From NCBI GenBank assembly GCA_021818955.1, contig JAKASR010000013.1:1-64000 (forward strand): a DNA stretch of 64,000 nt. The letters are read 5' to 3'. Positions 1,475 to 53,145 of the stretch are shown piece after piece. Position 1 is the stretch's first letter; each line of letters begins with the position of its first letter. The translations under genes and the position numbers were made by a program. The notes below the pieces were generated by a model, which was not told the origin of the DNA, searched no databases, and saw only the letters and a list, made by a program, of their open reading frames with translations. The DNA comes from Acidobacteriota bacterium (GTDB taxonomy: Bacteria; Acidobacteriota; Terriglobia; Terriglobales; SCQP01).

Positions 1475-2365
1475 ATGGCACAGATTGGTTGTGGCTACGG
1501 CAGTGATTGGCATTTGATGATGCAGATGGCGCGACGGCGGCATGCCATGAACCTGGGCATCCAAGCGCAGACCGGATGCGGCGCAATCGTGTGGCTGGAT
1601 TTTGATGAGCACGGCCATGAGATCAGCGGCTCGGCCGCTTTTACTTTTAGGCGCTGACGCTTTTGCAATGGACCGGCCGAAACCGGACGCAGGGCGAATA
1701 CTCATGGATGCGGAAAGTTTAATGTCGTTAATAGGCACGAGACCTAAAAGGAACCCCGCGCTTCGGCCTGCGATCTCGGACGAAAACTGCTGTCCAACTC
1801 GGCCGTTAACGTTTAAGGCCTGGATTTTTTTCATCCGGAAGACCCGGTTCGAAAAAATTGGGAAGCAAGATGGCCGCAGAAGGGCAACGTGCCGAATTGG
1901 GACGCGGTGGGAAAGACGACGATGCAAGGCCGCACGACCTGGCTACTGGCCGAAGCCAAAGCGCATACCCAGGAAATGTTTTCGCATTGTGGCGCAGAAA
2001 ATCAAGACAGCCTGAAGCACATCCAAGCTTTCTTGACGGAAGCGATTCACGAACTCCATGGCAACCCGGAAGCCGATTTGACCCGGAACTATTATCAATA
2101 CTGCAACCGGCTGGCGACGCTGCACTATCTCAACAAAAATGGAATCGAGGCGCAGTTGCTGATGCTTTATTTCACCGGCGACCGGCATGAAGGCCGGGTT
2201 TGCCCCAAAAACAAGGCCGAATGGCAGGACGCGATCAAACAGCAAGACGCTTATTTCGCTTTAAGTCCCCAGCCGGCGTGGGTGCATAAGATATATCTGA
2301 AAGCTATTCACCGGGGGGAAGAAAAGCCGCGCGCCCGCGCCGCCGGCGCCGAAGATGGTTTTTGA
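1475..2365 (+). pseudogene. Nuclease-like hypothetical gene split by a CPIE copy
   Basis: The 5' part starts at ATG 1475 behind AGGAGGG and encodes MAQIGCGYGSDWHLMMQMAR, reaching IVWLDFDEHGHEIS before running into the repeat element. The 3' part resumes after the element, in the same frame, with LDFFHPEDPVRKNWEARWPQ and WDAVGKTTMQGRTTWLLAEAKAHTQEM, ending at 2365. The WLLAEAKAH segment resembles the E-x-K strand of PD-(D/E)XK nucleases, but this family has no assigned function that I can name. The element (1626-1816) introduces stops, so the gene is probably dead unless the distal half starts at an internal GTG (1889). The two halves read as one protein if the element is removed. Confidence 0.7.
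1626..1816 (+). repeat. CPIE copy 1, short form, inside a gene
   Basis: Left end GCGGCTCGGCCGCTTTTACT, then the TTTAGGCGCTGACGC block, the imperfect CGGCCGAAACCGG stem, a GGCACGAGACC/CCCCGCGC stem region and the right end AACTCGGCCGTTAACG. It lacks the internal CAATTTC palindromes. It interrupts the nuclease-like reading frame; the flanks suggest the uninterrupted gene read E-I-S-G-L-D-F. Confidence 0.85.
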
Positions 2366-2380
2366 TAATCGCGGACGGAT

Positions 2381-2557
2381 GCGGCACGGCCGCTTTTACT
2401 TTTAGGCGCGGACGCTTTCGCAAAGGTTCGGCCGAAACCAGAAGCATGGTGAATACTCATGGATGCCGGGCATTGCCGGGCGGAATGCTCGCGGAATTGC
2501 CGGGCTTGCCGGGCGCGATTCCGTTCATGCTTCGCGCAAATTTCAGAATTTAACGCT
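2381..2557 (+). repeat. CPIE copy 2, between split gene and rimO
   Basis: Left end is intact; the middle has GCCGGGCATTGCCGGGC and related inverted repeats; the right end is degenerate (CAGAATTTAACGCTCG). Its TTAACG motif supplies the rimO stop codon (2550-2552, read on the minus strand), so element and gene end overlap. Confidence 0.75.
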
Positions 2558-4079
2558 CGACCACGCGAGCGACCAGATCGTAGTCGTGGGCGGCGGTGAT
2601 TTCGGCGGTGACGAAGCTGCCGATGGCGGGGGGCGGGGCGGGCGAGCCGCCGGGGCGCAGGCCGAAGTCGTTGAGCAGGACTTTGCCGTCGATGCCGGGG
2701 GCCTGGCCTTCGAGGCGGGCCTGCCAGAGCAGGGCGCTTTCTTCGGCCGGACCTTCGACCAGCACCGTGGGGCGCGCGCCGAGGAGCGCGCGGCGGCGCC
2801 GGCGGGAGATTTTGCGCTGCAACTGCATGAGCTGGTCGCGGCGAGCTTCGGCCACCTCGGAGGGCACTTTGGCGTCGAGCGCGTGCGAGCGGCTGGTGGA
2901 TTCATCCGAGTAGGCGAAGACGCCGAGCCAATCGAGCTCGGCGGCCTGTATAAAGTCGCAGAGGATTTTATGGTCGTCTTCGGTTTCGCCGGGAAAGCCG
3001 GTAATGAACGTCGAGCGCAGGGCGACGCCGGGGATGGCGGCGCGGATGCGGGCGAGGAGCTGGAGGAAATGGTCGCCGGAGCCGCCGCGGCGCATGCGCG
3101 CCAAGACTTGGCCGCTGGCGTGCTGCAAGGGCATATCGACATAGCGGCAGAGGCGGGGATGGGCGGCGAGGGTATCGAGCAATGGCGGGGTGACGCGGTT
3201 GGGATAGAAGTAGAGGGTACGGATCCAGACCAATTCTTCGATGGCGGCGAGGCGGGCGAGCAGTTGCGCCAGGCCGTGGCGGAGTCCGAGGTCGGCGCCG
3301 TAGCTGGTGGTATCCTGCCCGACGAGCACCAGCTCGCGGGCTCCGGCGGCGGCGAGGCGGCGGGCTTCGGCCTCGACCGAAGCCAGGGCGCGGCTGCGGA
3401 AGGCGCCGCGGTAGTGGGGGATAACGCAAAACGAGCAGGGGTGGTCGCAGCCCTCGGCGATTTTGAGGTAGGCGGTATGGCGGGCGGTGGTAAGCAGCCG
3501 CGGGGTGCGGTCGTCGTAGAGATAGCCGGGCTGAGCGGCTTGGGCGGCCGGCGGCATAACACGGCCGTTAACGCTTAGGGAGGGAGACGCAGCCGGCGGC
3601 GGGGAGGGCAGCACGGGCAGAGCGGCGCCGGCGGTGCGCGGCCGGCTGAAAGCGGGCGCGGATGCCAGCGCGGCCGCGGTTTCATGCTTTACGGCCGGAT
3701 TGATCGCAGTAGCCTCGGCAACACGCGGCGAGTTGCCGGCGACGGCGGCCAGGATTTGGGGCAGCTCGTTGGTGCCGACGAGGGCATCCACTTCGGGAAT
3801 TTCGGCCTGAATCTGCTGGCGAAAGCGCTCGACCAGGCAGCCGGCGACGATGAGGCGGCGGGCGCGTCCGCTGCGCTTGAGCTGGGCCAGCTCGAGGATG
3901 GCGTCGACGGATTCCTGCTGGGCGCTTTCGATAAAGGCGCAAGTGTTGACGACCAGCACCTCGGCATCTTCGGCGCGGGGGGTGAGGGTGTGTCCCTGCT
4001 CGCCGAGCAGGCCCATCATGACTTCCGAATCGACCAGGTTTTTGGGGCAGCCGAGGCTGATAAATCCAACTTTAGGCAT
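2550..4079 (-). CDS. rimO: Ribosomal protein S12 methylthiotransferase RimO
   Basis: RimO adds a methylthio group to an aspartate of ribosomal protein S12 using two iron-sulfur clusters and S-adenosylmethionine. The N-terminal domain has the three cluster cysteines Cys11 (SLGCPKN), Cys47 (VNTCAF) and Cys81 (VAGCL). The radical SAM motif is CDHPCSFC (Cys211, 215, 218), and a TRAM-like domain ends the protein. At 509 residues it is longer than the usual 430-450. The excess is an Ala/Pro-rich insert at about residues 120-183, between the two conserved domains. Residues SLSVNGR in that insert are encoded by the right end of the CPIE repeat (3562-3577). All catalytic cysteines remain, so the enzyme is probably active. 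Confidence 0.93.
   Translation of the reverse strand: MPKVGFISLGCPKNLVDSEVMMGLLGEQGHTLTPRAEDAEVLVVNTCAFIESAQQESVDAILELAQLKRSGRARRLIVAGCLVERFRQQIQAEIPEVDALVGTNELPQILAAVAGNSPRVAEATAINPAVKHETAAALASAPAFSRPRTAGAALPVLPSPPPAASPSLSVNGRVMPPAAQAAQPGYLYDDRTPRLLTTARHTAYLKIAEGCDHPCSFCVIPHYRGAFRSRALASVEAEARRLAAAGARELVLVGQDTTSYGADLGLRHGLAQLLARLAAIEELVWIRTLYFYPNRVTPPLLDTLAAHPRLCRYVDMPLQHASGQVLARMRRGGSGDHFLQLLARIRAAIPGVALRSTFITGFPGETEDDHKILCDFIQAAELDWLGVFAYSDESTSRSHALDAKVPSEVAEARRDQLMQLQRKISRRRRRALLGARPTVLVEGPAEESALLWQARLEGQAPGIDGKVLLNDFGLRPGGSPAPPPAIGSFVTAEITAAHDYDLVARVVER
3562..3577 (+). repeat. CPIE right-end fragment within rimO
   Basis: CGGCCGTTAACGCTTA is the exact CPIE right end, here inside the rimO coding sequence and translated on the minus strand as part of SLSVNGR. 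The rest of the element is missing or unrecognisable. Confidence 0.7.
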
Positions 4080-4202
4080 TGGTTTAGTTTAAAGCACGGG
4101 CGGCACGGGGTTAGGGCGGCGCGGGGTTGGGCAAGCAGGGGACGCAGCGGCGGCGCACGAAAAGATTTTTAGCGCATTTCGTGGAAAAGAGCGGCACCAC
4201 GG

Positions 4203-4391
4203 AGCAGGCTGCAGACAATTTCTCCGATATTGATAATGCCGCAGGCAATTTCTCCGAAATTGACTGGCCGCAGGCAATTTCTCCGAAATTGACTGGCCGC
4301 AGGCAATTTCTCCGAAATTGATAATGCTTCAGGCAATTTCTCCGAAATTGCCATAGACGAAAACTGCGGTCCGACTCGGCCGTTAGCGTTT
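4203..4391 (+). repeat. CPIE copy 3, right half with five palindromes
   Basis: The left end is missing. Five tandem units of about 30 bp each hold CAATTTCTCCGAAATTG (the first one mutated), followed by GACGAAAACTGCGG and a right end with one change (CGGCCGTTAGCG). It fills most of the gap between rimO and the PrsW-like gene. Confidence 0.85.
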
Positions 4392-4502: not shown

Positions 4503-5690
4503 ATGTTTTGTCCGCATTGCGGAAACCAGTATGCCGTCCAACAGCGCTTTTGCACTCACTGCGGCGGGGCCATGGCCGCTACCCCGCCCGCGGGCGCGGC
4601 AGGCTTGCCCATGGCGGCGGCAGCGGCGGCGGCGGCGGAACATGAGCATAAAAGCCTGGTCGGCGGCGTAAGCTCGCGCATCAACCGCCTGGCCGGCACG
4701 GAAAAGCTGGAAGGCTTCAGCCTGAAGGAGATGTTTTCGCAGGTCTTCAAAAAGCGCACGCCGGAGGAGGTGGAAGATTACCTGATCGCCGGCACGCTGA
4801 AGACCACGCCCAACATCACGGATGTACAGACCGGCTGGCCGCATCCGTGGCTGTTCGCGCGGGTGCTGGGGCTGCTGGTGCTGGCCTATTTCGGGCTGGT
4901 GATGGGTTGGAACCAATTCCAGAACACCAACTTCATTCCCGGCATCATGCTGCTGGGCGACTTTGCCGTGCCGCTGGCGATGGTGGTGCTGTTTTACGAG
5001 TTGAACACGCCGCGCAACGTATCGCTGCCCAAGCTGGCGCAGTTGTTCCTTACCGGGGCGGTGCTGTCGCTGTTTATCGCCATGATCGGGTACACGGATA
5101 TCGGCGGGGCGCTGAAATGGATGGGCGATTCGCAAGCGGGCATCGTGGAAGAACTGGCCAAACTGGCGGCGGTCATACTGATCGCGCGCAGCATACGGTA
5201 CAAATACATATTGAACGGACTGTTGGTAGGCGCCACGGTGGGGGCGGGATTTGCCGCCTTTGAGAGCGCCGGCTATGCGTTCACCGCCGTTTTCCAAACC
5301 CACAATGCGAATTTCATGCTGCAGGAAATCCAGATGCGCGCCATGTGGGCGCCTTTCGGCCATATCGCCTGGACGGCGATCGCCGCCGCCGCCTTGTGGC
5401 GGGCCAAGGGGGAAGCCGCCTTCCATTTGGGCGTGCTGAAAAACGGGGCTTTCTGGCGTACCATGCTGATTCCCATGGGCCTGCACGCGTTATGGGATTT
5501 TTATCCGCAATGGCCAGTCTTCGTGGCCGCGGGCGTGGTGGGCTATTTCGTCATTTTCGGGCTGGTGCAGCAGGGGCTACACCAGGTGCGCGACGACCAG
5601 AAGTGGCAATTGAGCGAGCAGTTGAGCCAATTGCAAGCGGCGCCGGCGGGACTGACGGCGGCAGCGGGAAGCGGCGCGGAAGGGGCGTAA
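4503..5690 (+). CDS. PrsW-family intramembrane metalloprotease with zinc ribbon
   Basis: A 395-residue membrane protein. Residues 3-20 form a zinc ribbon (CPHC and CTHC), then an Ala-rich linker and an amphipathic region to about residue 110. At least seven hydrophobic segments follow. PrsW motifs are visible: VEELAK at 215-220, AFESAGYAF at about 252-260, GHIAW near 286 and GLHALWDF near 326. In Bacillus PrsW cleaves an anti-sigma factor; the substrate here is unknown. I chose ATG 4503 because CAGGAGAAA lies 9 bases upstream and the zinc ribbon starts at once. No sigma/anti-sigma pair is adjacent. The stop is followed within 10 bp by heptanucleotide array 2. Confidence 0.85.
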   Translation: MFCPHCGNQYAVQQRFCTHCGGAMAATPPAGAAGLPMAAAAAAAAEHEHKSLVGGVSSRINRLAGTEKLEGFSLKEMFSQVFKKRTPEEVEDYLIAGTLKTTPNITDVQTGWPHPWLFARVLGLLVLAYFGLVMGWNQFQNTNFIPGIMLLGDFAVPLAMVVLFYELNTPRNVSLPKLAQLFLTGAVLSLFIAMIGYTDIGGALKWMGDSQAGIVEELAKLAAVILIARSIRYKYILNGLLVGATVGAGFAAFESAGYAFTAVFQTHNANFMLQEIQMRAMWAPFGHIAWTAIAAAALWRAKGEAAFHLGVLKNGAFWRTMLIPMGLHALWDFYPQWPVFVAAGVVGYFVIFGLVQQGLHQVRDDQKWQLSEQLSQLQAAPAGLTAAAGSGAEGA

Positions 5691-5885
5691 GGCTAGGGAA
5701 GGCGCAGAGCGCAAAGCGCAGAGCGCAAAGCGCAGAGCGCAAAGCGCAGAGCGCAAAGCGCAGAGCGCAAAGCGCAGAGCGCAAGGCGCAGAGCGCAAAG
5801 CGCAGAGCGCAAGGCGCAGAGCGCAGGGCCAGAGCGCAGGGCGCAGAGTGCAGAGCGCAGAGCGCAGAGCACAGAGCACAGAGCC

Positions 5886-5945
5886 AGAATTGATCTGGGC
5901 GCAGCCCGCAAGCGGGCTGCTTTCCACGGAAGGAAAAAGCAGAAA
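5886..5945 (+). repeat. 60-bp stem-loop module, copy 1
   Basis: Contains GCAGCCCGCAAGCGGGCTGC (9-bp stem) followed by TTTCCACGGAAGGAAAAAGC. The segment CTGCTTT can also pair with AAAGCAG downstream, so two alternative hairpins are possible. Confidence 0.85.
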
Positions 5946-6022
5946 GCGCAGAGCGCAAGGCGCAGAGCGCAGGGCCAGAGCGCAGGGCGCAGAGCACAGG
6001 GCACAGAGCACAGAGCACAGAG

Positions 6023-6083
6023 CCAGAATTGATCTGGGCGCAGCCCGCAAGCGGGCTGCTTTCCACGGAAGGAAAAAGCAGAA
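6023..6083 (+). repeat. 60-bp stem-loop module, copy 2
   Basis: Nearly identical to module copy 1, including the GAATTGATCTGGGCGCAG entry sequence. Confidence 0.85.
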
Positions 6084-6147
6084 AGCGCAGAGCGCAAAGC
6101 GCAGAGCGCAAGGCACCGAGCGCAGGGCTCAGAGCACAGAGCGCAGA

Positions 6148-6210
6148 GCCTGAATTTGTCTGGGCGCAGCCCGCAAGCGGGCTGCTTTCCACGGAAGGAA
6201 AAAGCAGAAA
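6148..6210 (+). repeat. 60-bp stem-loop module, copy 3
   Basis: Same stem-loops; the entry sequence is GAATTTGTCTGGGCGCAG, matching the modules of array 3 more closely than copies 1 and 2. Confidence 0.85.
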
Positions 6211-6410
6211 GCGCAGAGCGCAAAGCGCAGAGCGCAAGGCGCAGAGCGCAAAGCACAGGGCGCAAAGCGCAGGGCGCAAGGCAAAGAGCGCAGAGCGCAA
6301 AGCGCAGAGCGCAAAGCGCAGAGCGCAGAGTGCAGAGCGCAGGGCGCAAGGCTCAGGGCACAGAGCTCAAGGCGCAAAGCGCAGGGCGCAAGGCAAAGAG
6401 CGCAGAGCGC

Positions 6411-6701
6411 ATTAGGCGCTGACGCTTTCGCCAAGGTCCGGCCGAAACCGGACGCATGGCGAATATTCATGGATGCCGGGCATGGCCAGCGCAATTCCTG
6501 CGGAATTGCCGGCTTGCTTGGCGCAATTCCTGCGGAATTGCTTGGCAATGTCGTTCATAGGCGCGGGACCTAACCGGAACCCGGCGCGAAACGGCCTGCG
6601 AGCATGACTAAAGGCAATTTCTCTGAAATTGAGCAGGCTGGAGGCAATTTCTTCGAAATTGCCAAGGACGAAAACTGCTGCCCGACTCGGCCGTTAACGC
6701 T
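6411..6701 (+). repeat. CPIE copy 4, long form
   Basis: The first bases of the left end are replaced by the heptamer array. The body contains TCCGGCCGAAACCGGA, two GCAATTCCTGCGGAATTGC palindromes, a GGCGCGGGACC/CCCGGCGC stem, two CAATTTCTYYGAAATTG palindromes and the canonical right end. It is one of the most complete long copies. Confidence 0.9.
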
Positions 6702-6764
6702 TTCGGCTTCTGTATTTGTCCATGTGACAGAAATGAACGTAATGGCTCCTCTATAAGGTGCGCG

Positions 6765-9282: not shown

Positions 9283-9588
9283 GCGGCACGGCGGCTTTTA
9301 CTTTTAGGCGCTGACGCTTTCGCAAAGATCCGGCCGAAGCCGGACACATGGCGAATACTCATGGCTGCCGGGCATGGCCGGGCGCAATGCCGGCGGAATT
9401 GCTTGGTATTGTCGTTCATAGGCGCGGGACCTAACCGGAACCCCGCGCTGCGGCCTGCGGGCATGGCTGCAGGCAATTGCTTCGAAATTGAGCATGCTTC
9501 AGGCAATTTCTTCGAAATTGAAAATGTTTAAGCAATTTCTTCGAAATTGCCAATGACGAAAACTGCTGCCCGATTCGGCCGTTAACGC
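9283..9588 (+). repeat. CPIE copy 6, long form
   Basis: Both ends are present (left end GCGGCACGGCGGC carries one change). Three CAATTTCTTCGAAATTG-type palindromes are visible plus a related CAATTTCATTAAAATTG just outside at 9263. It fills the whole gap between the isomerase-like gene and the next gene. Confidence 0.9.
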
Positions 9589-9591
9589 TTT

Positions 9592-11014: not shown

Positions 11015-11291
11015 GCGGCACGGCCGCTTTTACTTTTAGGCGCTGACGCTTTCGCAATGATCCGGCCGAAACCGGACGCTTCGTTAATAGGCGCGGGACC
11101 TAAAAGGAACCCCGCGCGAAAGCGGCCGGCGGGCATCGCTTGAGGCAATTTCTTCGAAATTGCGCAGGCTTGAGGCAATTTCTCCGAAATTGCGCAGGCT
11201 TGAGGCAATTTCTCCGAAATTGAAAATGTTCAGGCAATTTCTCCGAAATTGCCAATGACGAACCCTGCACTCCAACGCGGCCATTAACGCT
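11015..11291 (+). repeat. CPIE copy 8 with four palindromes
   Basis: Canonical left end, the GGCGCGGGACC/CCCCGCGC stem, then four tandem units of about 30 bp each holding CAATTTCTYCGAAATTG, and a slightly altered right end (GCGGCCATTAACGCT). It separates the oxidase subunit and FG-GAP genes. Confidence 0.9.
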
Positions 11292-11298
11292 CAACGGC

Positions 11299-12626: not shown

Positions 12627-12801
12627 GCGGCACGGCCGCTTTTACTTTTAGGCGCTGACGCTTTCGCCAAAGTCCGGCCGAAAGCGGACGCAGGGCGAAT
12701 ACTCATGGCGGCCGGACATGGCCGGGCGCAATGCCGGCGGAATTGCCGGCTGGCTTGATGCAATTTCCGCGGAATGGCTGTCCGACTCGGCCGTTAACGC
12801 T
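12627..12801 (+). repeat. CPIE copy 9
   Basis: Complete left end, TCCGGCCGAAAGCGGA stem, one GCCGGCGGAATTGCCGGC region, no CAATTTC palindromes, and a complete right end GACTCGGCCGTTAACGCT. It sits between the divergent FG-GAP and MFS genes, where their promoters should be. Confidence 0.85.
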
Positions 12802-12931
12802 CCTGGCTCTGCCCGCTGCCCGCCTCGCTCCAGGTGTTTTTTACAGCGGATGCGGCACCCAGCGATATTTTCACCGGCATGGGTCTTGCGCGCGCCAGCC
12901 TGGGGGGAGCGGGCGGCTATGCTAGAAGCAT

Positions 12932-14137
12932 ATGGACCGCAAGCGCACCCGACAACTGCTGGCGCTGGGGTTGTTTCGCACCTCGCGCAGCATTGCCGCC
13001 GGCATGATCATGCTGGGCTTTCCTTATTTCATTTTGCAGCACCTGCATCTGGGGGCGCTCACACTGGGGCTGCTCTACGCCGCAGCCGGCATCGCCACGG
13101 CGGTGCTGGGGCTGGCAATCGGCTATCTGGCCGACACTTGGGGACGGAAGCACGCTTTGATTCTGGTGGGGGCGACGCTGCCGGCGAGCACGGCGCTGGT
13201 GGTTTATAGCGATCGCCTGGCGCACCCGCTGCCCTGGCTGTATCTGGCGTCCATGCTAGGCGGGTTTTCGGCCACAGGCTCGCTGATGGGCGGCGGGGTA
13301 GGCGGGGCGGCGGCGCCGATCCAGAGCGCGGTGATTGTCGATTTGGCCAAGCCGTACAAGCCGACCGCGTATTTTTCCTGGTTCAACTTCTTCAGCGGAG
13401 TGTTTGCCGCGCTGGGCGCGCTGCTGGGCAAGCTGCTGAGCGTGCCGGAAATTTTTTTAGCCGCCACCCTGATCTCGCTCGCCGGGCTGGCGGCGCTGGC
13501 GCCGTTGCGGCTGCCGCGCTATCATGCCAACCCGCGCCAACTCAAAGGCAAACGCATCATCGGCCAATTTTCGATGACGGGCGCACTCAACGGCCTGACG
13601 CAGGGGCTGATTACCCCGTTCCTGATTCCCTTCTTCGTGCTGATTTTCGACGTGCCGAAAAGCCAAATGGCGGTGTACGGCTTCATCAGCGGCGGGTTGG
13701 GAGCGCTGGCGCTGCTGGCGGCACCGCCGCTGGAAAAGCGCTGGGGATTTGTCAAAACCGTCGCCCTGACCCGCGGGCTGGGAGCGATCCTGCTGCTGAT
13801 TTTGCCCTTCGAGCACTGGCTGCCGCTGGCGCTGGCGATTTATTTTGTGACGCCGGCGCTGCGGGTCATGGCCGTGCCGGTGCAGCAAACCGCGCTGAGC
13901 GAGCGGGTCGAGGCGCATGAGCTGGGACGGGCGCTGGGATTGAACCAAGTGGCGCGGCTGGCCGCGTCCTCGGGCGCCATCGCCTTCACCGGCGCCATGT
14001 TCGAATCCGCGCTGGAGGTGCCGTTCGTGGTCTATTTCGTGATTATGAGCATGAATATCTATCTCTATTACCGCTTCTTCGGCGAACGCCAGGAGAACGC
14101 CGCGCTGGCCGAGCCGCCGCCGGGGGAGACAGCGTAA
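12932..14137 (+). CDS. MFS transporter
   Basis: 401 residues with about 12 membrane segments. The conserved loop between segments 2 and 3 is present as GYLADTWGRK (64-73). It resembles major facilitator drug or metabolite exporters; the substrate is unknown. Its stop is followed by heptanucleotide array 3 after 2 bp. No operon partner is visible. Confidence 0.85.
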   Translation: MDRKRTRQLLALGLFRTSRSIAAGMIMLGFPYFILQHLHLGALTLGLLYAAAGIATAVLGLAIGYLADTWGRKHALILVGATLPASTALVVYSDRLAHPLPWLYLASMLGGFSATGSLMGGGVGGAAAPIQSAVIVDLAKPYKPTAYFSWFNFFSGVFAALGALLGKLLSVPEIFLAATLISLAGLAALAPLRLPRYHANPRQLKGKRIIGQFSMTGALNGLTQGLITPFLIPFFVLIFDVPKSQMAVYGFISGGLGALALLAAPPLEKRWGFVKTVALTRGLGAILLLILPFEHWLPLALAIYFVTPALRVMAVPVQQTALSERVEAHELGRALGLNQVARLAASSGAIAFTGAMFESALEVPFVVYFVIMSMNIYLYYRFFGERQENAALAEPPPGETA

Positions 14138-14167
14138 GAGCGCAGAGCGCAAAGCACAAAGCACAAA

Positions 14168-14230
14168 GCCGGAATTTGTCTGGGCGCAGCCCGCTAGCGG
14201 GCTGCTTTCCACGGAAGGAAAAAGCAGAAG
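14168..14230 (+). repeat. 60-bp stem-loop module, copy 4
   Basis: Carries the perfect 20-bp palindrome GCAGCCCGCTAGCGGGCTGC, then TTTCCACGGAAGGAAAAAGC. Confidence 0.85.
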
Positions 14231-14266
14231 GCGCGGAGCGCAGAGCGCAAAGCACAAAGCACAAAG

Positions 14267-14330
14267 CCGGAATTTGTCTGGGCGCAGCCCGCTAGCGGGC
14301 TGCTTTCCACGGAAGGAATAAGCAGAAAGC
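14267..14330 (+). repeat. 60-bp stem-loop module, copy 5
   Basis: Same as copy 4 with one change (GGAATAAGCAG). Confidence 0.85.
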
Positions 14331-14363
14331 GCGGAGCGCAGAGCGCAGAGCGCAGAGCGCAAA

Positions 14364-14426
14364 GCCGGAATTTGTCTGGGCGCAGCCCGCTAGCGGGCTG
14401 CTTTCCACGGAAGGAAAAAGCAGGAA
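14364..14426 (+). repeat. 60-bp stem-loop module, copy 6
   Basis: Same as copy 4; the following heptamers change to GCGCAGG. Confidence 0.85.
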
Positions 14427-14515
14427 GCGCAAGGCGCAGGGCGCAGGGCGCAGGGCGCGGGGCGGCGCGGGGGAACTGGACACGGGCCGCCGGAGACGGG
14501 AAACTGAAATAAAGC

Positions 14516-16532: not shown

Positions 16533-16903
16533 GCGGCACAGCCGCTTATATTTTTAGGCACCGACGCTTGCGTAATGGTCCGGCCGAAGCCGGACGCATG
16601 GCGAATACTCCTGGCTGCCGGGCATTGCCGGGCGCAATTCCCGCGGAATTGCCGGCTGGCTTGATGCAATTCCTGCGGAATTGCTTGGTATCGTTGTTAT
16701 TAGGCGCGTGCTCTAACCGGAACCCCGCGCGAAAGCGGCCTGCGGGCATGGCTTGAGGCAATTTCTTCGAAATTGAGCAGGCTGAAGGCAATTTCTCCGA
16801 AATTGAGCATGCTCAGGCAATTTCTCCGAAATTGAGCATGCTCAGGCAATTTCTCCGAAATTGCCATTGACGAAAACTGCGGTCCGACTCGGCCGTTAAC
16901 GCT
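16533..16903 (+). repeat. CPIE copy 10, longest form
   Basis: Contains nearly every module: left end (GCGGCACAGCCGCTTATAT), CCGGCCGAAGCCGG stem, GCAATTCCCGCGGAATTGC and GCAATTCCTGCGGAATTGC palindromes, the GGCGCGTG...CCCCGCGC region, four CAATTTCTYCGAAATTG units and the right end. It fills the uvrB-proS gap. Confidence 0.92.
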
Positions 16904-16961
16904 ATCGGCATGCGAAAGAAGATTTGCCGAAGAGAGGCGAAGTCTGCGACATTAAAAGCTT

Positions 16962-26349: not shown

Positions 26350-26537
26350 GCGGCACGGCTGCTTTTACTTTTAGGCGCTGACGCTTTCGCTAGGATCCGG
26401 CCGAAACCGGACGCAGGGCGAATACGCATGGCGGCCGAAAGTTTATTGTCGTTCATAGGCGCGGATCCTAATAGGAACCCCGCGCTTCGACCTGCGATCT
26501 CGGACGAAAACTACTGTCCGACTCGGCCGTTAACGCT
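26350..26537 (+). repeat. CPIE copy 15, short form
   Basis: Same type as copies 1, 17 and 22: AGGATCCGGCCGAAACCGGAC stem region, GAAAGTTTATTGTCGTTCAT, GGCGCGGATCC and CCCCGCGC, ATCTCGGACGAAAACTACTG and the canonical right end, with no CAATTTC palindromes. Confidence 0.9.
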
Positions 26538-26581
26538 TATCGCCTGCTGCAAATGAAACCAGGCAGCATACAATATTCAGC

Positions 26582-34350: not shown

Positions 34351-34572
34351 GCGGCTCGGCCGCTTTTACGTTTAGGCGCTGACGCTTTCGCCAAGGTCCG
34401 GCCGAAACCGGACACAGGGCGAATACTCATGGATGCCGACAGTTTATCGTCGTTAATAGGCGCGGGTCCTAAACCGGAACCCCGCGCTTCGGCCTGCGGA
34501 CATGGCTTGAGGCAATTTCTTCGAAATTGCCAAGTTGACGAAAACTGCTGTCCGACTCAGCCGTTAACGCTT
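34351..34572 (+). repeat. CPIE copy 17
   Basis: Left end GCGGCTCGGCCGCTTTTACG, the TCCGGCCGAAACCGGA stem, the GGCGCGGGTCC/CCCCGCGC stem region, one CAATTTCTTCGAAATTG palindrome, and a right end with one change (GACTCAGCCGTTAACGCT). It is intermediate between short and long forms. Confidence 0.88.
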
Positions 34573-52823: not shown

Positions 52824-52959
52824 GGATATACCCCTGCCAGGCGTCGTGGTCTGCTTCCCCTGGAGAATAACATAAGGCTGAGTTACCTGGCTAAGCGGAC
52901 GCCGAGAGCAGTGGCGCAAGCCGGGGAAAAACGTGCTCACGCCTTGCAGGTACAAGCAG

Positions 52960-53145
52960 CGCTAACGGCCGAGTCGGACAGCAGTTTTCGTCCGAAATCG
53001 CAGGCCGAAGCGCGGGATTCCTTTTAGGTCCCGCGCCTATTAACGACGATAAACTTTCGGCATCCATGAGTATTCGCAAAGCGTCCGGTTTCGGCCGGAC
53101 CTTTGCGAAAGCGTCGGCGCCTAAAAGTAAAAGCGGCCGAGCCGC
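52960..53145 (-). repeat. CPIE copy 21, short form, inverted
   Basis: The only full copy in reverse orientation. Read on the minus strand it has left end GCGGCTCGGCCGCTTTTACT, the TCCGGCCGAAACCGGA stem, GGCGCGGGACC/CCCGCGC, ATTTCGGACGAAAACTGCTG and the right end. It is closest to copies 1, 15 and 17. From 53146 to 53262 I see nothing else. Confidence 0.9.

Follow-up and report, generated by a model that had tools for sequence, protein, structure and literature searches.

A precisely inserted, non-coding repeat element interrupts a putative nuclease-like gene in an Acidobacteriota genome

In the stretch of DNA analysed here (the window, 64,000 nucleotides of an Acidobacteriota genome), a mobile element insertion interrupts one gene, the two parts of which lie at positions 1475–1625 and 1815–2365 of the forward strand, while the 189-bp element itself (copy 1 of its family) occupies 1626–1814, also on the forward strand. 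The explanation that best accounts for all the evidence taken together, and that we consider probable, is that a non-autonomous, hairpin-rich element was moved in trans, most likely in single-stranded form, and inserted precisely into a nuclease-like gene that was thereby inactivated.

The 5′ part of the gene is preceded by a Shine-Dalgarno-like AGGAGG (1463–1468, +), read directly from the sequence and lying 6 nt before the ATG; it comprises 50 codons together with the first base of a Lys codon, and is homologous to residues 1–50 of uninterrupted relatives. The 3′ part, which includes the stop codon at 2363–2365, contains a D...ExK nuclease-like motif (NWDAVG...WLLAEAKA). An earlier, sequence-only reading of this region had proposed that the two halves lie in one frame and would form a single protein once the element was taken out, and this holds: positions 1475 and 1820 each leave a remainder of 2 on division by 3, and the outer parts stay in frame because the insert is 189 bp, i.e. 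63 codons (63 x 3), in length. Straight translation of 1475–2365 opens MAQIGCGYGSDWHL...HEIS and ends LDFFHPEDP...GF at the terminal stop, with three stops between (1655–1657, 1745–1747 and 1814–1816), all of them inside the element or at its edge; the insertion would be expected to inactivate the gene, with translation stopping after 60 residues. If 1626–1814 is excised, ATCA is fused with AAGGCC to give ATC AAA GGC CTG GAT TTT (I-K-G-L-D-F), which rebuilds the Lys codon (A plus AA), and the joined protein then reads HEIKGLDFF. The E-I-S ending originally read for the first half was thus partly correct, in that HEI belongs to the gene, but the S comes from a hybrid codon that takes its A from the gene and its GC from the element, the true codon being Lys. 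Homologues at the corresponding point read EWKGVDF, EWRGVDF, ELKGIK and EFKGVEF, an E-x-K/R-G pattern, showing that the K/R and G are restored by the excision.

Uninterrupted relatives, which the sequence-only reading had suggested looking for, were found using tblastn with the joined protein as query. On the Azospirillum ramasamyi plasmid NZ_CP029830.1 the match consists of one uninterrupted piece over residues 1–212 (43% identity, E=1e-47; the homologous CDS is 237 aa long), and because this one piece covers both halves, they are halves of one gene and do not belong to different families. Further uninterrupted homologues occur in Azospirillum sp. 412522, a Bacteroidaceae MAG and Planctomycetales ZRK34 (N-terminal part), while a homologue in a Rhodospirillales MAG matches the 3′ part; in the first scan of genome contigs, the 3′ half alone as query gave no match. 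It might be argued that two unrelated reading frames have come into register by chance, given that GC-rich DNA yields many chance open frames and that removal of the element across all copies does not as a rule join frames; however, one homologous protein spans both halves in several organisms, and the single tblastn piece refutes this candidate explanation, whose probability we regard as practically negligible. The homologues are uninterrupted and contain no element-like residues, which supports the earlier suggestion that the element was inserted after the gene existed. Since the 3′ part remains open over 181 codons, with neither stop nor frameshift, the gene was probably not broken long ago on the time scale of gene decay.

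Fixing the exact ends of the insertion requires more care, as the homologues are about 6 residues longer just before the junction (e.g. SRTWLDG). The Planctomycetales homologue AEHGDREFKGVEF spans the junction, aligning with DEHGHE-IKGLDF, so that the length difference must lie upstream, with no loss at the point of insertion. When pairs of boundaries were scanned against the homologue proteins, the exact cut ranked 6th of 278, some other pairs outscoring it because the element bases that they retain fill the 6-residue gap to the homologues. An attempt to fix the left boundary from protein data alone was rejected on this ground, and that boundary rests instead on the alignment of element copies and on the nested copies described below; these, together with the exact restoration of the gene, place the element at 1626–1814, with no duplicated target bases.

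The element is non-coding and belongs to a large family with well-defined ends. Thirty full-length copies in the genome agree on termini GCGGC...AACGCTT, while copy 1, which is 93% identical to the consensus of these 30, has AACGTTT at its 3′ end (1800–1814, +; CGGCCGTTAACGTTT, against a consensus of CGGCCGTTAACGCTT). The 5′ end (1626–1649, +) consists of a hairpin, GCGGC/GCCGC, the pairs of which are kept in 33/33 aligned copies, followed by TTTTACTTTTA; judged by sequence, this hairpin and T-rich run resemble an intrinsic terminator. The terminal GCGGC is conserved at 94–98% per base (125 ends). The commonest length is 189 bp, and forms of 219, 222, 250 and up to 398 bp have identical ends, the longer ones bearing expandable hairpin arrays at two places. 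These arms are built of two kinds of hairpin unit in tandem, one of about 30 nt (GGCAATTTCTYCGAAATTG...) and one of about 34 nt (GGCGCAATTCCTGCGGAATTGCC...), in numbers that vary between copies; within the window such units are seen in element copies at 4200–4350, 6600–6730, 9465–9590 and 16750–16900. In the copy alignment the outermost ends do not form an inverted repeat, and pairing between the subterminal segments (columns 25–35 with 204–214) is imperfect. The whole element folds no better than shuffled sequences do, and compensatory changes are nearly absent (3/47 pairs), so that no functional fold is demonstrated for the element in its entirety; both results count against the explanation favoured here. 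No match to the element was found in Rfam, no convincing autonomous long version was found between element ends, and neither viral contigs, plasmids nor phages yielded a copy. The literature searched, which did not extend to subscription papers, contained no description of it.

Within the window the 3′-end motif occurs 19 times, compared with 0.2 expected. A second copy, consisting of the 5′ portion only (2381–2533, +), starts 15 nt beyond the stop of the interrupted gene, and others on the same strand comprise a 308-bp copy with both optional hairpin arrays (9283–9590), a 278-bp copy with a tandem hairpin array (11015–11292), a 176-bp copy (12627–12802), a 372-bp copy again with both optional arrays (16533–16904), a 189-bp copy (26350–26538) and a 222-bp copy (34351–34572), while one 189-bp copy (52957–53145, −) has the opposite orientation. 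An exact 3′-end motif CGGCCGTTAACGCTT is also present at 3562–3576 (+) inside a RimO-like open reading frame on the other strand (2550–4079, −), where it is in frame and yields an extra ..LSVNGRV.. in a proline/alanine-rich insert of this conserved enzyme gene; it is possibly a remnant of the element tolerated within a protein. Distinct from the element are low-complexity arrays of a 7-nt unit (AGCGCAA / AGCGCAG) that lie between genes at 420–660, 5690–6470 and 14115–14456.

Across the assembly of the host genome (G000; 3.8 Mb in 47 contigs, 96% complete) there are 444 matches to the 5′ end, allowing up to 2 mismatches, compared with 20 for a reversed control, and 302 matches to the 3′ end compared with 1. 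Taking the 3′ counts in the window with the 5′ counts genome-wide, chance is excluded, and the element is an interspersed one, with about 300–440 end matches in the genome. Copy statistics cover roughly 22% of the genome plus fetched loci, and genes were called with our own simple codon-usage gene finder on 847 kb, again about 22% of the genome; 75% of this sequence was called coding, and on this basis 49/51 paired copies are intergenic, and they lie in either orientation relative to the genes. Exact removal across 80 copies gave no excess of long joined frames, and the idea that frame-joining might be a general sign of insertion into genes was accordingly rejected, copy 1 being the exception. 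As copies are almost all intergenic and their removal does not as a rule join frames, the split gene represents a rare hit on a gene. In the genome of a sister species in the same genus (G001), some syntenic spacers lack copies, e.g. across the 250-bp copy in contig C12, these spacers being too diverged to serve as base-exact empty sites.

It is also at this point that one may consider an intron-like or retro-type RNA element, which would splice out and leave the gene functional. Such an element would be structured, precise, free of duplication and of frame-keeping length, as this one is, but the lack of any Rfam match and the almost wholly intergenic location of the copies, in either orientation, are difficult to reconcile with it. 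In addition, the only reverse transcriptase found is an RT-Cas1 fusion beside a CRISPR-like array, and we judge this explanation very improbable indeed. The fusion itself (G000:C28:103523–105622, −; locus L084) adjoins a regularly spaced repeat array of about 3 kb (about 100045–103002), and this CRISPR locus may acquire spacers from RNA.

Evidence as to how the element inserts comes from three copies nested in other copies (L007, L009 and L018), where deletion restores the host copy with a gap-free junction, implying insertion with neither target-site duplication nor loss. For 80 copies, exact matches between left and right flanks are close to chance at every length from 1 to 8. What does stand out is position +4 beyond the 3′ end, which is occupied by G in 74/80 copies (intergenic G frequency 0.29; p ~2e-32). 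This G belongs to the target, being present in the AAGG past the insertion point in the split gene (1815–1818, +) and in the TAGG, TTGG and TAGG of the nested sites, and it also follows element-like 3′ ends in G001 and in a genome of another genus (G004), persisting there even where the last base of the element has diverged. The target rule is thus shown to be insertion at N^NNNG, with zero duplication and zero loss. The sequence-only reading had instead taken GGC/GCGGC at the junctions as a hint of target preference; this does not survive, since GCGGC is the element's own 5′ terminus and so cannot describe the target, while the GGC to the right is target DNA, so that the two sequences make up no common target motif and are not duplicated bases. 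The same data bear on the possibility of a classical MITE moved by a DDE transposase, an idea that the small size, non-coding nature, intergenic location and high copy number of the element would all suit; however, duplication of any length is absent from the 80 copies, the split gene and the nested sites alike, and the outermost ends are not mutual inverted repeats, making this quite improbable.

Orientation adds a further strand to the argument. Neighbouring copies are alike in orientation in 79/96 cases compared with a shuffle mean of 66.8, copy orientation is correlated with local GC skew (53/10 against 17/20), and contigs C2, C6, C12 and C14 carry long same-orientation runs that partly follow the skew; the link is moderate, and local spreading or copying could produce the same pattern. 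Insertion of IS608 is a single-strand process linked to replication (PMC6006769), and the clustering and skew association would suit an insertion of this type. The mechanism we favour is one in which a non-autonomous, non-coding element (basic length 189 bp, with longer forms carrying hairpin arrays), which inserted precisely into an accessory gene, was moved in trans by an enzyme recognising its ends, with transposition most likely taking place on single-stranded DNA as for REP or IS200/IS605 elements. Single-strand-type transposition in trans is our best guess because it is in keeping with insertion without duplication, with a hairpin at the terminus, with a target signal on one side only and with the association of orientation with GC skew.

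A search for the enzyme responsible gave mainly negative results. The Y1/RAYT transposase family PF01797 has no match in the host genome, although controls match, as do 10/15 genomes; relatives' genomes do have Y1 transposases, and none of the three loci checked showed convincing element ends around these genes; this result, like the missing match in the host genome, counts against the favoured mechanism. The IS110-type transposase PF02371 likewise has no match in the host genome while controls match, and a search for Y2/IS91 found nothing, in control genomes as well. The gene for the mobilising enzyme may have disappeared from this genome or may be absent from the assembly. Twelve phage-integrase-family matches in the genome are possible movers, and they lend some weight to an alternative in which a tyrosine or serine recombinase, and not an HUH enzyme, moved the element in trans on folded or subterminal sites (integron-cassette-like or integrative). 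Zero duplication would fit this too, and the subterminal 5′ and 3′ segments can pair, but there is no attC-like or att core common to element and target, the targets have just one base in common, and at least two of the integrase matches appear to score like ordinary Xer proteins; we regard this alternative as unlikely, though by no means negligible.

Among the known systems closest to the element are the RAYT-moved REPs and REPINs, which share its hundreds of non-coding, hairpin-forming, mostly extragenic copies, its lack of an autonomous form and its presumed movement in trans (PMC3116915, PMC2817692, PMC3733652). However, the element is 189–400 bp long whereas REPs are units of 20–40 bp or doublets (PMC3116915, PMC2817692, PMC3733652), it lacks GTAG, its termini being GCGGC and, for the reverse-complemented 3′ end, AAGC, it has a target with G at +4, and no RAYT gene was found in the host genome. 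CGTC-tagged repeats and Rickettsia palindromic elements are similarly palindromic, 100–200 bp long, able to sit in genes and associated with no known dedicated transposase (PMC3733652, PMC2229807), but the copy alignment shows no CGTC terminus, and the element brings three stops into the frame of the gene where a Rickettsia element gives a readable in-frame fusion. Bacterial MITEs (Correia/NEMIS, RUP, ERIC, YPAL) resemble it in being under 400 bp, non-coding and interspersed (PMC2229807, PMC10969869), although the element is neither A+T-rich nor bounded by TA termini, and has neither outermost terminal inverted repeats nor target duplication. With IS200/IS605 it shares the absence of target duplication, hairpins near the ends and strand-linked orientation (PMC6006769), the last seen here as a correlation with GC skew. 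It differs in that no transposase gene lies within the element or was found in the genome. IS200/IS605 elements use a fixed 4–5 base site on the 5′ side, whereas here the target signal consists of one G, on the 3′ side. From the IS110 family it differs in the lack of a PF02371 transposase in the host genome. The element thus forms a clearly bounded family within a known broad group, the miniature non-autonomous repeats, and is set apart from REPs and MITEs by its ends, by the absence of duplication and by its target rule. That it forms a class of miniature mobile DNA of its own, defined by fixed ends, expandable hairpin arms, a strict ^NNNG target and insertion without duplication, seems to us rather doubtful; if true, the recombination enzyme behind it would be one not yet linked to any miniature element.

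As to the gene itself, it is an accessory gene of patchy distribution, and motifs together with predicted structure suggest a PD-(D/E)XK nuclease-like product. D...ExK is kept (as NWD...EAK) in the split gene and in both Azospirillum, the Rhodospirillales and the Bacteroidaceae proteins, while the Planctomycetales ORF diverges before ExK. For the predicted structure of the Azospirillum homologue (pLDDT 79.5) the best structural rows are BstEII, NucS/EndoMS, SfsA, XisH and PaqCI, with Z of 5–7, below 8, and Foldseek alone gave no significant E. These best rows, nucleases of the PD-(D/E)XK fold, make that fold a candidate for the product, which stands apart from the superfamily in being covered by no family in Pfam, NCBIfam, PADLOC or PHROGs, and phages and the defence and phage-family libraries gave no convincing match to the gene. 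On the A. ramasamyi plasmid (L042:1502–2509) the homologue follows, at a distance of two genes, another protein annotated as belonging to the PD-(D/E)XK nuclease family, a setting that suggests a nuclease or defence neighbourhood.

Disruption of this gene is an ordinary outcome of an insertion, and its value lies in providing an exact empty-site reference. For miniature bacterial repeats, filled and empty sites defined to the base are seldom available; in this case the split gene and three nested copies establish the ends of the element, its lack of duplication and a one-base target rule. The fixed ends and target rule narrow the range of possible enzymes, and make the element a concrete substrate for testing how repeats spread where no cognate transposase is visible.
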